Of a stretch of DNA of 37,499 nucleotides, positions 7,713 through 20,789 are shown piece by piece. Source of the DNA: Gemmatimonadaceae bacterium (GTDB lineage Bacteria > Gemmatimonadota > Gemmatimonadetes > Gemmatimonadales > Gemmatimonadaceae); NCBI GenBank assembly GCA_020852815.1, contig JADZAN010000041.1, positions 1 to 37,499 on the forward strand. The letters are read 5' to 3'. Both the position numbers and the translations under genes were made by a program. How positions within the stretch are numbered: position 1 is the first letter of the stretch; every line of letters begins with the position of its first letter. The notes beneath the pieces are model-generated. The model made no database searches and was not told the origin of the DNA. It saw nothing but the letters and a program-made list of their open reading frames with translations.

Positions 7713-7771
7713 AGACTAGAAGCCTGCCTCAGCGAAGGCTGGGGACGAGAGCGTTCAAGACCGAAAAGCTC

Positions 7772-7875
7772 GACACGGAGGCTCACGGAGGTGTCACGGA
7801 GGTACACGGAGGAGTGCGGCGGAATCGCTGACGTCCTCCGTGTACCTCCGTGACACCTCCGAGGACCTCCGTGTC
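7772..7875. terminator. Large inverted repeat between convergent genes
   Basis: Perfect 27-bp inverted repeat, arms 7787-7813 and 7834-7860, with a 20-base loop. An outer imperfect layer adds GACACGGAGG (from 7772) pairing with CCTCCGTGTC (ending at 7875). It lies 75 bases after the Asp-box gene stop and 33 bases before the stop of the convergent lipoprotein gene, so it could end transcription from both sides, although it has no T-run. The arms consist of CACGGAGG-type words that recur in the 183-bp repeats at 19135-19776, so it may be a mobile palindrome reused as a terminator. Confidence 0.6.
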
Positions 7876-7907
7876 CCGCTTCTGGTTGTTGCGGTTGTCC
7901 GCTCACC

Positions 7908-8444
7908 TCAGCGAATGCGGAAGGACAGGAAGGGGACGCGCGCCTCGTTAGGCCCTCCATTCGGCGGCGTCGTCCCCGACGACTCGCCGCCGTGGATGAT
8001 TGCATAGGTCGCCGCGCTCACCGCCAGCGCGCCGAGCACCACCGACGTGATCGTCGTGCGCTTGCGGTCGAGCTTGCGGACCTCCACCGAGCGAAAGTCG
8101 CTGCGCGCCAGCGGGAGCGGCTGGTAGAAGGTCACCGGGCGCGTCATGGCGTCCGACGACTGCGTCGTCTGCACCGAGAGCACCACGCTGTCACCCGTGA
8201 CGCGCGACACGGCGCCGCTGACGGAGAAATCCTCGAGCAGGCGCGCCTCGTTGCTCTTCCCATTGCGCAGCTGCTCCACCGCCATCCCGCTCAGTTGCAC
8301 ACGGACCGACGTGTTGGGGCTGATCTCGCTGAGCTGAATGGGCTGGTACGAGTAGCACCCCGCGGAACTCGCGAGGGCGAGGACGAGCGCGGGGCGCAAG
8401 CGGCGCACGCGGCACCCTGACGGTCGGGGACTGGATAGCGACAT
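7908..8444 (-). CDS. Small predicted lipoprotein, function unknown
   Basis: A 178-residue protein from the ATG at 8444. A GTG at 8480 is possible but would add 12 residues before the signal sequence and sits inside direct repeats. The signal sequence ends in a lipobox, LASSAGC, with C30 as the lipidation site. After this comes a beta-rich middle (VRVQLSGMAVEQL, VSGAVSRVTGDSVVLSVQT), then a basic stretch RKLDRKRTT and a C-terminal hydrophobic segment (about 140-157, SVVLGALAVSAATYAII) followed by a short tail. I recognise no family. The hydrophobic segment near the C-terminus is unusual for a simple lipoprotein and could be a second membrane anchor. It converges on the Asp-box gene. Confidence 0.7.
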   Translation of the reverse strand: MSLSSPRPSGCRVRRLRPALVLALASSAGCYSYQPIQLSEISPNTSVRVQLSGMAVEQLRNGKSNEARLLEDFSVSGAVSRVTGDSVVLSVQTTQSSDAMTRPVTFYQPLPLARSDFRSVEVRKLDRKRTTITSVVLGALAVSAATYAIIHGGESSGTTPPNGGPNEARVPFLSFRIR

Positions 8445-17429: not shown

Positions 17430-18656
17430 TCAGCGCAATTCCATCCGCTGGATGGCCACCGTCCCCTCCACCCACTCGGCGCCCGACTCGCCGTGTGCGA
17501 GCATCACGCGCGCGCTCCCGTCGCGCTGCACCAGGCAGTAGGCGCCGTAGATGCCCACCGGCAGGCGATACGCCCTGATCCCGTCGCCCGGCATGCAGCC
17601 GATGGCACCGGCGACGGTGATGGTGGGGGGCGCCTCGCCGGCACGACGGGGAATGTACTTGAGCCAGTAGGAACCGTTAGGCAGTTGCCAGTGCAGCGTG
17701 TCGCCGCGCGCCAGGCGCACCGGGCGCGCCACGAAGCGCTGGTCGTCGCGCAGCGACTCGAACGAGGGAACGAGCGCGTGGACCACGAGCATCATGCGCG
17801 CCTCCTGTTCGCCCACCTCGACGCGCACCATCGTGGCCCCTTCCTGCCTTGCGCGAACGGTGGCGCCGTCGAGCGTAGCGATGGCCGGGTTGGAGAGATG
17901 CGTGGCGCCGCGCAACTCGGTCACCCGCTGGCCGTCGAGACCGATCGCCTCGAACGGGAGGTGGCGCGGCGTGGAATCGCCGGCGACGAAGTCGATCCAG
18001 GTGGCGGCGCGCAGCTCCTGGACGGGACGGCAGTGCACGTCGACGTCGGTGAAGATGGCGCCGAGCGTGGCGCGCACGCGGGCGTCGCCCCGCTCGGTGC
18101 AGGTGAGGACGCCGCGTGCGGTGATGGAGAGCGGTGCACCCGACCTCCAGGCGAAGCGCACACTGTCGGCATCGAGGCGGTAGCCGGCCCGGTTGAGCAC
18201 ACGCATCTCGAGCTGGACCGGCCGGGCGTTGTTCACGACGATGCCGTCGGCTGCAAAGGCTGGTCCGGCGTCGATGCTCACGGCAACGCCGTAGCGCGAC
18301 CTGACCGCGACCAGCACGACCGCCAGCGTGAGAGCGAGGATCGCGATGAGGGCGGCAAGCCGCAGGTATGCGCGCGGGCCGCCGTGCCGCAGCGCACTCC
18401 CGACGAGGTGCGGCGCCGAGCGTATGAGCTCCCGCGCCCGCCACGCCGTCGCCGCCAGGCGTCCGTCGCTGGAGACGCGATGCGCGTATTCCTCGGCGAG
18501 GTCGCCGAAGACACCATCGAGGAAGCAGGGGTCCGCGCCTAACGCCAGGAGGGAGCGCTCGACGAGCGTGTGCCGGCTCGAGCCCGCGGCGTGTGCGGCG
18601 TTGACGTGCGCTTCGTGTTCGTGCGCCTCGCGGGCGCCGGCGCGGTATCTCGTCAT
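17430..18656 (-). CDS. One-TM protein with ADOP-like prefix and Ig-like outer domain
   Basis: A 408-residue protein from the ATG at 18656, whose ATGA overlaps the stop of the upstream PadR gene, fixing the start. Residues about 30-85 (FLDGVFGDLAEEYAHR, then ATAWRARELIRSAPHLV) resemble the cytoplasmic permease prefix domain found before ADOP permeases (GDLxEEY motif). One transmembrane helix follows (about 98-117, LAALIAILALTLAVVLVAV). The rest is predicted outside the membrane: beta-rich, with a bacterial Ig-like pattern (VTELRGATHLSNPAIATLDGA, GATMVRVEVGE) and four or more Cys. No FtsX or MacB permease domain is present, so the prefix has been combined with something else. Its operon with PadR suggests a PadR-controlled envelope function. 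The product is otherwise unknown. Confidence 0.75.
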   Translation of the reverse strand: MTRYRAGAREAHEHEAHVNAAHAAGSSRHTLVERSLLALGADPCFLDGVFGDLAEEYAHRVSSDGRLAATAWRARELIRSAPHLVGSALRHGGPRAYLRLAALIAILALTLAVVLVAVRSRYGVAVSIDAGPAFAADGIVVNNARPVQLEMRVLNRAGYRLDADSVRFAWRSGAPLSITARGVLTCTERGDARVRATLGAIFTDVDVHCRPVQELRAATWIDFVAGDSTPRHLPFEAIGLDGQRVTELRGATHLSNPAIATLDGATVRARQEGATMVRVEVGEQEARMMLVVHALVPSFESLRDDQRFVARPVRLARGDTLHWQLPNGSYWLKYIPRRAGEAPPTITVAGAIGCMPGDGIRAYRLPVGIYGAYCLVQRDGSARVMLAHGESGAEWVEGTVAIQRMELR

Positions 18657-18988
18657 GCGAGCCTCGGATGCGTGAGCGGTCCAACCCCTGCCCACAATGC
18701 CGCCGCGTTCCGCTCTGCCTCGCGCAGCGCGCGGGCGCCAGCCGCCGTGACGGTAAAGTGGCGCCGCGATCGCCCGCCGCGCACAGGGAGCGGCGCGCTC
18801 GATCGGGAGCGAAGGAAGCCCTTCTCCTCGAGTCGCTGCAGCGTGGTGTACACCGCGCCCACGGAGTAGTCGCGCCCCGTCCGTTCCGAGAGGTCGGCGC
18901 GCACCGCGAGTCCGTAGGCGTCGTCCCCAAGCCGAGCGACGGCCAGGAGTGCGGCGAGTTCGAGTGTTCCGAGTGTCGGTGTCGGCAT
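18653..18988 (-). CDS. PadR-family transcriptional regulator
   Basis: A 111-residue winged-helix regulator. Motifs: TLGTLELAALLAVARLGDDAYGL at the start (helices 1-2), VGAVYTTLQRLEEKGFL (recognition helix and start of wing) and the RGGRSRRHFTVTAAGARAL wing, as in PadR proteins that act as ligand-responsive repressors. The ATG at 18988 puts the N-terminus at the usual place (MPTPTLGTLEL); a TTG at 19024 is in frame but adds an atypical extension. No Shine-Dalgarno site precedes the ATG, so a leaderless transcript is possible. It overlaps the next gene by four bases (ATGA), so the two are surely one operon, and a candidate operator lies against the start codon. Confidence 0.9.
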   Translation of the reverse strand: MPTPTLGTLELAALLAVARLGDDAYGLAVRADLSERTGRDYSVGAVYTTLQRLEEKGFLRSRSSAPLPVRGGRSRRHFTVTAAGARALREAERNAAALWAGVGPLTHPRLA

Positions 18989-19010
18989 AAGTACTAGTTT
19001 GTAGAACAAA
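18989..19010 (-). promoter_or_regulatory. Candidate PadR operator/promoter
   Basis: AT-rich island directly against the PadR start codon: on the plus strand AAGTACTAGTTT followed by GTAGAACAAA. It contains the palindromes GTAC and ACTAGT and the short dyad TTGTAGAACAA. Its AAGTACT word is shared with the site at 28481-28490 near the second PadR gene. Autoregulation by PadR is usual for the family; binding here is inferred. Confidence 0.4.
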
Positions 19011-19134
19011 TCGCGAGCGCGCAAGTCCGGCGTGAGATCGTGGCCCGCGCCTGCGACAGGGCCTGGGTCGAGTGCCCGCTGCGTGAGGCGCCATCTCGGT
19101 CGAGGGCGGCCCCGTCCCCGCGATCCTGCTCGGC

Positions 19135-19776
19135 GTCACACGGCGGAAACCAAGGACGATGGACCTCCTCCGTGCCCCTCCGTGCCTCCGTGCTTCCTCC
19201 GTGTTCAAGGCACTTGATCTTGCCGTTCTGCTGAGCGCCGCCTGACCCAGCGAGGGCGTCGGGCCAGGAAGTTCAAGGTCAAGATCGTCATGACACGGAG
19301 GTAAACGGAGACACGGAGTCACACGGAGGAAAGCAAGGACGATGGACCTCCTCCGTGCCCCTCCGTGCCTCCGTGCCTCCTCCGTGTTCAAGGCACTTGA
19401 TCTTGCTGTTCTGCTGAGTGCCGCCTGACCCAGCGAGGGTGTCGGGCCAGGAAGTTCAAGGTCAAGATCGTCATGACACGGAGGGAAACGGAGACACGGA
19501 GTCACACGGAGGAAAGCAAGGACACTGGAACTCCTCCGTGCCCCTCCGTGCCTCTGTGCCTCCTCCGTGTTCAAGGCACTTGACCTTGCCGTTCTGCTGA
19601 GCGCCGCCTGACCCAGCGAGGGTGTCGGGCCAGGAAGTTCAATGTCAAGATCGTCATGACACGGAGGGAAACGGAGACACGGAGTCACACGGAGGAAAGC
19701 AAGGACGATGGACCTCCTCCGTGCCCCTCCGTGCCTCCGTGCCTCCTCCGTGTTCAAGGCACTTGATCTTGCCGTT
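19135..19776. repeat. 183-bp tandem repeat, about 3.5 copies
   Basis: Direct repeats with an exact 183-base period: the word GTCACACGG recurs at 19135, 19318 and every 183 bases after; ATGACACGG occurs at 19290, 19473 and 19656. The first copy is partial and diverged, the others nearly identical (for example CTTGATCTT versus CTTGACCTT). Each unit is itself a long imperfect inverted repeat: CACGGAGG words on one side face CCTCCGTG words on the other, and TTCAAGGTCAAGATC faces the TTGATCTTG side. No gene is seen in 19011-20068; the 183-bp array fills most of it. The same CACGGAGG words build the hairpin at 7787-7860. Confidence 0.93.
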
Positions 19777-20068
19777 ATCCTGCCACCTTCATCAAGTACG
19801 ATCCCATCTGCTGCGGCTACCCGAAAAGCCTCGATGACACGCCGCGCATAGTGCGCAACCAGAAGGCACTCGGCGCTCCCCTTTGAAGAACGACGTGGTG
19901 CAACGCTTCGCGCGGACGGCGACGCGATACGTCCCGACGCTGGTGATGAACCCGCTGGAGTCGTTCTTCGTACTAATGCGGCAGCAGGCGAGTTGTCTGC
20001 CGGTGATGGTGCAAGGAATCGAGGAAGGGCGTAGCGCGCGCGGCCCGACACCACCATTCTTCCGTTCC

Positions 20069-20602
20069 ATGAAAGAGACCAATGCGTCACGCGCCCTCAA
20101 GGCGGTCACGACCGACGAACCGCACCTTCCGGGTGCCGTGCTCGCGACCGACAACCCGCTGGTCGGCGTCCTGGTGGAGCAGTCGGAACGGCGACTGATT
20201 GCGGTGCAGGCAACCGAGGCGGGGACGGTCCTCTTCCGCATCGAGGGGTTCGAGTCACGCACCCCGTCCAAGTACTCGGTGCAGGTCGGGCGTGACCGGC
20301 ATCTCGACCAGCGTGGCGCACGCGACGCGACCGACCGCGTGCGCCGCTTCTACTGGCGCTACATGAACCACGCCTGCGAGCCCACCACGCGCATCGTGGA
20401 GTGCGAGGTGATTGCGCTGCGCGACATCGCCCCCGGCGATTCTGTCACCTTCGATTACAACACGACGGAAGAGAAGCTGGCGGAGCCATTCCGATGTCAC
20501 TGCGGGGCCCACGGATGCGTGGGTGTGGTGCGCGGGGCGCGACACCTCACGCCGGCGCAGCGCGCGCGCGTGGAGCACTTGCTGCCGGATTACCTGCGGT
20601 AA
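20069..20602 (+). CDS. SET-domain protein with post-SET zinc motif
   Basis: A 177-residue SET-domain protein, the fold of lysine methyltransferases using S-adenosylmethionine. The domain begins near residue 35 and contains TVLFRIEGF, YWRYMNHACEP (100-105 is the N-H-x-C-x-P signature), EVIALRDIAPGDSVTFDYN (catalytic-site Y130) and a post-SET motif CHCGAHGC (C143, C145, C150), which together with C103 would bind one zinc. The Asn usual after Pro in NHSCxPN is Thr here. The start is uncertain: the ATG at 20069 is used because the domain begins soon after, but the frame is open to a TTG at 19883 and has an ATG at 19946; none has a good ribosome site. The target of small bacterial SET proteins is generally unknown. 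It stands alone beside the repeats. Confidence 0.82.
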   Translation: MKETNASRALKAVTTDEPHLPGAVLATDNPLVGVLVEQSERRLIAVQATEAGTVLFRIEGFESRTPSKYSVQVGRDRHLDQRGARDATDRVRRFYWRYMNHACEPTTRIVECEVIALRDIAPGDSVTFDYNTTEEKLAEPFRCHCGAHGCVGVVRGARHLTPAQRARVEHLLPDYLR

Positions 20603-20789
20603 GAGTCCGCGGGTTCCTTCACTTCCGGCACTTCCCAGGGTGGCGCGGCGATTTGCCCCGCGCCGCCCCGATCGCCAACATATCCCGTCCGCCCTGCCAC
20701 GCCCGGCCCCCCCTGCGCGTAGCATACGGACCAGTCCCCGTCTCAACTCCACCGACGGCCGCCGAACCGGCCACCCCACGGAGCCCTTC

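Follow-up and report, generated by a model that had tools for sequence, protein, structure and literature searches.

A tandem array of CACGGAG hairpins in a Gemmatimonadaceae genome belongs to a dispersed repeat family linked to GxxExxY genes

REPIN/RAYT and the 23S rRNA intervening sequence (IVS) with its S23p gene are, by analogy and as far as the accessible parts of the source papers describe them, the known systems closest in logic to the locus examined here, although they are defined by another partner gene. In REPs the stems are short and carry a GTAG or CGTC tag (PMC3733652, accessible part). The REPIN/RAYT system combines dispersed paired palindromes, one gene with these repeats on both sides, and tandem arrays (PMC3116915, accessible part), and the Coxiella 23S IVS holds a small gene in a hairpin together with short tandem words and has been called selfish (PMC4990558, accessible part). 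The present locus shares with REPIN/RAYT the dispersed paired palindromic repeats, the repeat-flanked single gene and the arrays, but its partner gene is the PD-(D/E)XK-type GxxExxY (TIGR04256/PDDEXK_3) rather than a Y1 transposase, and each arm consists of three to four CRCRRAG words in tandem rather than a short tagged stem; the RAYT-type gene of the same genome is flanked by other words. With the 23S IVS it shares a small gene inside a hairpin and short tandem words, a layout also found at PF05635 (IVP) genes of the host family outside rRNA. It differs from the IVS in protein family and words, in lying outside 23S rRNA and in having many dispersed gene-less hairpins. MITEs and their parent insertion sequences are alike in that gene-less elements share inverted arms with a gene-bearing one; here the cassette is about 420-740 bp with one small gene, no classical transposase was seen and no clear target-duplication signal was found. 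A pairing of GxxExxY with hairpins was not described in the literature searched, a body that most subscription papers and all preprints lie outside. Six 15-mers of the repeat had no literature match, six 12-13-mers matched papers that appear unrelated in their accessible parts, and the mentions of the GxxExxY family name that were found give no role in the text available.

In this study, we examine a tandem repeat array in a window of 37,499 nucleotides (the whole stretch of DNA analysed), which is contig C41 of a 5.38-Mb draft genome of 47 contigs. The features referred to below are as follows, with the strand given where one applies.

19131-19782: tandem array of a 183-bp unit, 3.5 copies (TRF, self-repeat search, BLAST)
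19131-19291: first, partial copy, unit positions 23-183, beginning within the left arm (BLAST and copy comparison)
19292-19391: CACGGAG hairpin of unit 2, with four ACGGAG words, a loop of about 18 nt and four CTCCGT words
19392-19474: linker of unit 2 and second, imperfect hairpin (TTGATCTTG ... TCAAGATC) (RNA fold)
19475-19574: CACGGAG hairpin of unit 3
19658-19757: CACGGAG hairpin of the last, partial unit
7770-7880: one hairpin built from the same family of words, between convergent genes; both congeners lack it at the orthologous site (DNA fold, congener comparison)
17430-20090, minus strand: open frame of 886 codons through the array, a by-product and not a gene extension (ORF list, random-unit test)

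An earlier note on this DNA had described a 183-bp tandem array of palindromic units, each able to fold into a long hairpin. The array is real by all three methods: TRF reports positions 19131-19776 with period 183, 3.5 copies, 95% matches, no indels and a score of 1194, and with BLAST the last copy reaches 19782. Between the two full units there are 9 differences in 183 positions; relative to unit 2, the first partial copy (161 bp) has 7 differences and the last (125 bp) has 4. The palindromic description applies to about 100 bp of each 183-bp unit, the remainder forming a second hairpin that is imperfect and weaker than the CACGGAG hairpin. A long hairpin in each unit was borne out by both RNA and DNA folding, with the unit as RNA (189 nt) reaching -91.3 kcal/mol (z -5.4) and the 100-nt CACGGAG hairpin as DNA reaching -32.6 kcal/mol (z -7.2). 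Unit 3 has three CTCCGT words in its hairpin and the other units have four. No Rfam family matched the array at gathering score, and neither rRNA nor any other Rfam match was found in the window. The array is flanked by divergent genes, a PadR gene (18653-18988, minus) and a SET-domain gene (19883-20602, plus); a terminator role is therefore not obvious. In a simple scan of 18900-20000, neither promoter-like nor terminator-like sites were found within the array. The SET-domain gene (PF00856) has a match at E <=1e-20 in one other of 60 genomes, with an internal stop.

The earlier note also proposed looking for the unit elsewhere in the genome. BLAST of the unit against its own genome gave 80 matches at E up to 0.001, and the unit thus belongs to a dispersed family, one linked to GxxExxY genes. 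ACGGAG triples number 194 in this genome (89 forward and 105 reverse), as compared to 2 for a backward control. Within the host family the count of such triples ranges from 0 to 194 per genome; 62 of the 179 family genomes have any, and the present genome has the most. Complete hairpins were printed 29 times among 34 fetched loci of the genome. Like REPINs, these elements consist of two inverted repeats arranged as a hairpin in many dispersed copies, with extragenic position checked at two sites in the window. Other family loci in the genome also hold longer-period arrays, with periods of 183, 175, 303, 243, 204, 179, 212 and 187 bp, and a second 183-bp array, on contig C15, is 81-89% identical to the window unit over the whole unit. 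Several hairpin matches lie close to contig ends (for example on C4, C13, C19, C22, C26, C33 and C47), which suggests that breaks in the draft assembly arose at these repeats. Arms in this genome pair only slightly better with their own partner than with the arms of other hairpins (0.603 versus 0.572, p 0.03, n=32). An extended palindrome beyond the CACGGAG arms was considered and rejected, as own outer arms score the same as cross pairs (median 18 versus 18, n=30).

The association with GxxExxY was examined across bacteria and archaea. The cross-species set comprised the best 80 of 571 confirmed GxxExxY relatives, from records labelled as Planctomycetota, Chloroflexi, Acidobacteria, Proteobacteria, Cyanobacteria, Ignavibacteria, Bacteroidota, Hydrogenedentota, Methanothrix and others, and a cluster was defined as at least 3 CRCRRAG words. 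Clusters occurred within 350 bp of the gene at 61 of these 80 loci, as compared to 9 of 80 at 1000-1350 bp, a range in which not all loci have full far flanks; for the 64 loci with full flanks, the counts were 48 near and 8 far (p 5e-13). They were most frequent within 150 bp upstream (42/80) and within 150 bp downstream (48/78), with about 1-11% per bin from 350 bp outward. CRCRRAG ranks first of 420 letter permutations for proximity to the gene, and the k-mers most enriched near it, such as CCACAGAG, occur in the near flanks of 25 loci and in the far flanks of 2. Orientation at the 64 loci is inverted, with upstream clusters on the plus strand 37 times and on the minus strand once, and downstream clusters minus 37 times and plus 5 times. 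Since clusters lie near the gene and are nearly always inverted on its two sides, GxxExxY is contained in an inverted-arm cassette, and the fixed orientation of the enclosing arms puts the gene at the loop position of a would-be hairpin. Locus L118, for example, reads AACCGCAAAGGCGCGAAGAACGCGAAG - gene - CTTTGCGTTCTTTGCGCCTTCGCGGTT. Clusters are properly paired at 33 of the 80 loci, and at 19 of the 80 no CRCRRAG cluster lies near the gene.

A word-free test compared the upstream flank of each locus with its own reverse-complemented downstream flank, with the 95th percentile of far flanks as the threshold. Own pairs passed it at 56 of 74 loci; pairs made across loci with random partners passed in 84 of 367 cases, and the direct orientation did so at 24 of 74 loci. 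Measured arm to arm at 40 loci, the cassette spans about 420-740 bp and contains one small gene, with no classical transposase seen. The pattern CRCRRAG-1-CRCRRAG-2-CRCRRAG recurs in 23 of 30 GxxExxY genomes, picked mostly because their locus had arms, with up to 118+118 matches and none in any of the 30 for the backward control. Dispersed and gene-side word variants, compared by eye in seven genomes, agree at L118 (CGCAAAG/CGCGAAG) and L107 (CACAGAG, 2 matches), agree mostly at L143 (CACAAAG, 4/6 matches), in one of two at L114 and loosely at L077, and agree poorly at L117 and L121. Among viruses and plasmids, GxxExxY was found at one confirmed IMG/VR locus (two patterns) and in 5 of 72,556 plasmid records. 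The genome under study has a dispersed hairpin family with arrays, and across phyla GxxExxY stands between inverted arms of the CRCRRAG class; the window hairpins look like gene-less derivatives of this cassette.

The host genome has two TIGR04256/PF13366 matches, on C4 and C19. Its GxxExxY gene scores 140.4 bits, above the TIGR04256 curated cut-off of 35. At the C4 gene, an upstream arm, TTTCAACACGGAGGATGCACGGAGGCACGGAGGGCACGG, stops three bases short of the ATG adopted here (locus L033); this arm scores 61 of a maximum of 80 against the array and 38 against the 7770-7880 hairpin, with control windows at or below 24. No 3' arm was found at the C4 gene, and no such words near the C19 match. 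The congener G002 has two GxxExxY copies, one with a single upstream cluster in the opposite orientation and the other with none. Because the host copy has no 3' arm and the G002 copies have no proper pairs, no intact cassette was seen in the genus.

GxxExxY occurs in 128 of 179 host-family genomes. CRCRRAG clusters are near 20 of 54 host-family GxxExxY loci (7 paired) and in the far flanks of none of the 54; the other 34 have no such cluster near, some of them being enclosed by other words (L202, L207, L265), and 32 of the 54 pass the word-free test. At some GxxExxY loci, L265 and L180 among them, the gene stands between two complete hairpins, those at L265 being matching hairpins of about 150 bp with other words. 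Among 20 family genomes with at least 5 ACGGAG triples, 16 have GxxExxY, a count made by eye that is not decisive against the baseline of 128/179. Two genomes with at least 5 triples and no GxxExxY, G031 and G094, have a different 11-bp word; G155 (61 triples) and G126 (16) also have no GxxExxY match.

The protein itself is predicted to resemble nucleases of the Cas4/lambda-exonuclease type. The QxxxY element marks the Cas4/RecB group, whose motif consists of D, E-x-K and QxxxY. In 49 aligned GxxExxY sequences, G27xxE30xxY33, D70, E80-x-K82, H91 and Q94xxxY98 are invariant; the set thus includes D70, E80, K82, Q94 and Y98, the residues that define PD-(D/E)XK nucleases of the Cas4/lambda-exonuclease type. 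Conservation of nuclease-type residues in all 49 proteins suggests selection for activity. An AlphaFold2 model (pLDDT 90.5) searched with Foldseek gave as top matches 4ic1 (SSO0001, taken here as a Cas4) and LHK-Exo; tRNA-intron endonucleases came next, as did lambda exonuclease, which is within the top 11. E values ran from 2.5e-3 (4ic1) to 0.04, with none below 0.001. By VIA, 4ic1 aligned over 107 residues with Z 9.3 and rmsd 5.3, ahead of other restriction-endonuclease-like folds. No PDB relative was found by sequence at E up to 1.

We consider it probable, with moderate confidence, that the array arose by local head-to-tail amplification of a non-autonomous hairpin, on whose arms GxxExxY acts to drive copying. 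Inverted arms of three to four CRCRRAG words (here CACGGAG) characterise the element family, which is dispersed in the genome. GxxExxY, as a small Cas4/RecB-like PD-(D/E)XK nuclease, would act on the arms, either while they are single-stranded at forks or when they form a cruciform, and may drive intragenomic copying of both the cassette and the gene-less hairpins, much as RAYT is thought to do for REPINs. The tandem array would be a later product of slippage or unequal recombination between neighbouring hairpins and would itself have no coding role.

Comparison with congeners bears on whether the hairpins move. The single hairpin at 7770-7880 is stronger as DNA than the array hairpin (-55.3 kcal/mol, z -12.3). 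Between the same anchors, the site at 7722-7944 measures 221 and 203 bp in the window versus 93 bp in G002 and 70 bp in G001, and the CACGGAG hairpin, at 7775-7872 here, is absent from the orthologous site in both (C16 of G002 and C319 of G001). Both congeners carry AGAAGACG tandem repeats at that convergent intergenic site, and AGAAGACG is the word flanking the IVP gene of the host genome. Of four hairpin sites compared with G002, three coincide with breaks in synteny, a proportion that has no baseline rate for comparison; the breaks include window 19131-20653, with synteny beyond the array resuming only at 20653, and 3254 and 13524-13817 of L318. As to an orthologous site for the array, the SET neighbour gene is present in only 2 of 60 genomes, the host included. 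Direct words of at least 6 bp, sought as target-site duplications, were present at 5 of 40 loci versus 6.7% of cross pairs, with uncertain element ends. An empty site for a full cassette was sought with the G024 locus L243, whose upstream and downstream flanks were nowhere adjacent among ten congeners searched. No movement event was observed in the data compared, and mobility of the hairpins is inferred from such sequence comparisons.

The gene could instead be a passenger in a selfish hairpin, like the 23S rRNA intervening sequence, that spreads by a host process or at the RNA level, with the gene carried in the loop and shielded by the stem; we regard this as unlikely but deserving of weight. 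Genes of the unrelated 23S rRNA IVP family, PF05635, have inverted arms above the far-flank threshold at 22 of 25 host-family loci, often with short tandem words: 6 of 8 printed loci (L269, L271, L276, L278, L282, L283, L287, L291) have such words, for example GAGTTGA, GACGGGC, CAGGTAT or GACGAGAA, which differ between genomes. In the Coxiella IVS, too, tandem heptamers accompany an S23p ORF within a stem-loop (PMC4990558, accessible part), and the lack of a clear target-site duplication would also suit a passenger. Against this, word class tracks the gene family across phyla, which a passenger gene would not need, and the invariant nuclease-type residues of GxxExxY suggest that its activity is selected. 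The CRCRRAG class was found at none of the 25 PF05635 loci. In the host family the word class goes with the gene family, as the PF05635 and Y1_Tnp loci show other words.

It is improbable, in our judgement, that the hairpins are ordinary REPINs mobilised by RAYT, a Y1 transposase, with GxxExxY as a bystander. The host genome does have one Y1_Tnp gene, as do the triple-rich G005, G014 and G107, and REPINs are organised on the same logic and likewise occur in tandem arrays (PMC3116915, accessible part). But CRCRRAG clusters were found at none of 18 Y1_Tnp (RAYT-type) loci of the host family, and inverted GGGGTCAGAG words flank the single Y1_Tnp gene of the host genome (L355, C9:243554), whose 3.3-kb locus holds neither an ACGGAG nor a CRCRRAG cluster. 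Several of the 18 loci, this one included, have GGGGTCAGAG words in their flanks. ACGGAG clusters occur at 2 of the 18 loci, both in other genomes (G005 and G093), the one in G093 being an 11-bp repeat. At the G005 locus L359 (C25:163197), the Y1_Tnp gene is enclosed by long arms of GGGGACGGAG words, of GGGGACGGAGATCTTGAA type and in partial overlap with ACGGAG, and the ACGGAG hexamer is therefore not exclusive to GxxExxY. G031, G093 and G094 have tandem 11-bp ACGGAGTGGGG repeats, and in G093 a Y1_Tnp match is about 400 bp away from one such cluster. In occurrence, Y1_Tnp is present in 18 of 99 sampled family genomes versus 128 of 179 for GxxExxY, and six genomes with at least 11 triples have no Y1_Tnp match (G155, G126, G018, G096, G025, G027). 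RAYT was rejected as the partner on the differing words of the host-genome flanks, though L359 has GGGGACGGAG arms. In the loci examined, the CRCRRAG class accompanies GxxExxY, and the bare hexamer is not exclusive to it.

We likewise see little likelihood that the hairpins are host regulatory or structural sites, such as terminators or replication or recombination landmarks, which GxxExxY merely often adjoins. The hairpins are strong, the one at 7770-7880 lies between convergent genes, and the breaks in synteny at three of four compared sites could be read in this way. But triple matches vary from 0 to 194 per genome within one family, the array lies between divergent genes, and chance proximity would not give the fixed inverted orientation of the arms at GxxExxY. 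The roles suggested earlier for the array (transcription or replication landmark, RNA source, recombination hotspot) lack specificity. Finally, it is scarcely credible that the minus-strand frame encodes a real 886-residue protein with repeats: it does run uninterrupted across the array (0 stops in 217 codons), but on one given strand 61% of Markov-random 183-mers of this composition are also open as a circular frame, a random-unit test on which the coding reading was rejected, the gene at 17430-18656 has its own likely start at 18656, chosen from its coordinates, in a 4-bp overlap with the PadR end, and the gene part of the frame has no Pfam match. The earlier note was thus correct that the frame stays open in every copy, in phase with that gene, and, given the random-unit result and the use of another frame by the PadR gene (PF03551), that it is a by-product. 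The period is a multiple of three at 183 bp, as had been pointed out, but this has no general meaning, because other arrays of the family have periods such as 175, 179, 187 and 212 bp.

Returning to amplification of a hairpin served by GxxExxY, we tentatively put forward the broader possibility, to which we give somewhat less than even confidence, that GxxExxY and its CRCRRAG arms form an undescribed and very widespread minimal mobile element, in which a single Cas4-like nuclease gene within a hairpin of tandem heptamers seeds many gene-less hairpins and arrays of them. If this is true, one hairpin lifestyle would be served by three unrelated proteins, the Y1 transposase, the four-helix-bundle IVP and GxxExxY, with different words for each. 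The fixed gene-in-inverted-arms layout across phyla points to a testable function for GxxExxY, that of a nuclease acting on hairpins. It would also offer an origin for the CACAGAG/CACGGAG-type repeats of many environmental microbes and for the breaks of draft assemblies at them. Judged from sequence, the presence of matching arms around a small nuclease-like gene in many distant microbes suggests a little-studied single-gene mobile element.
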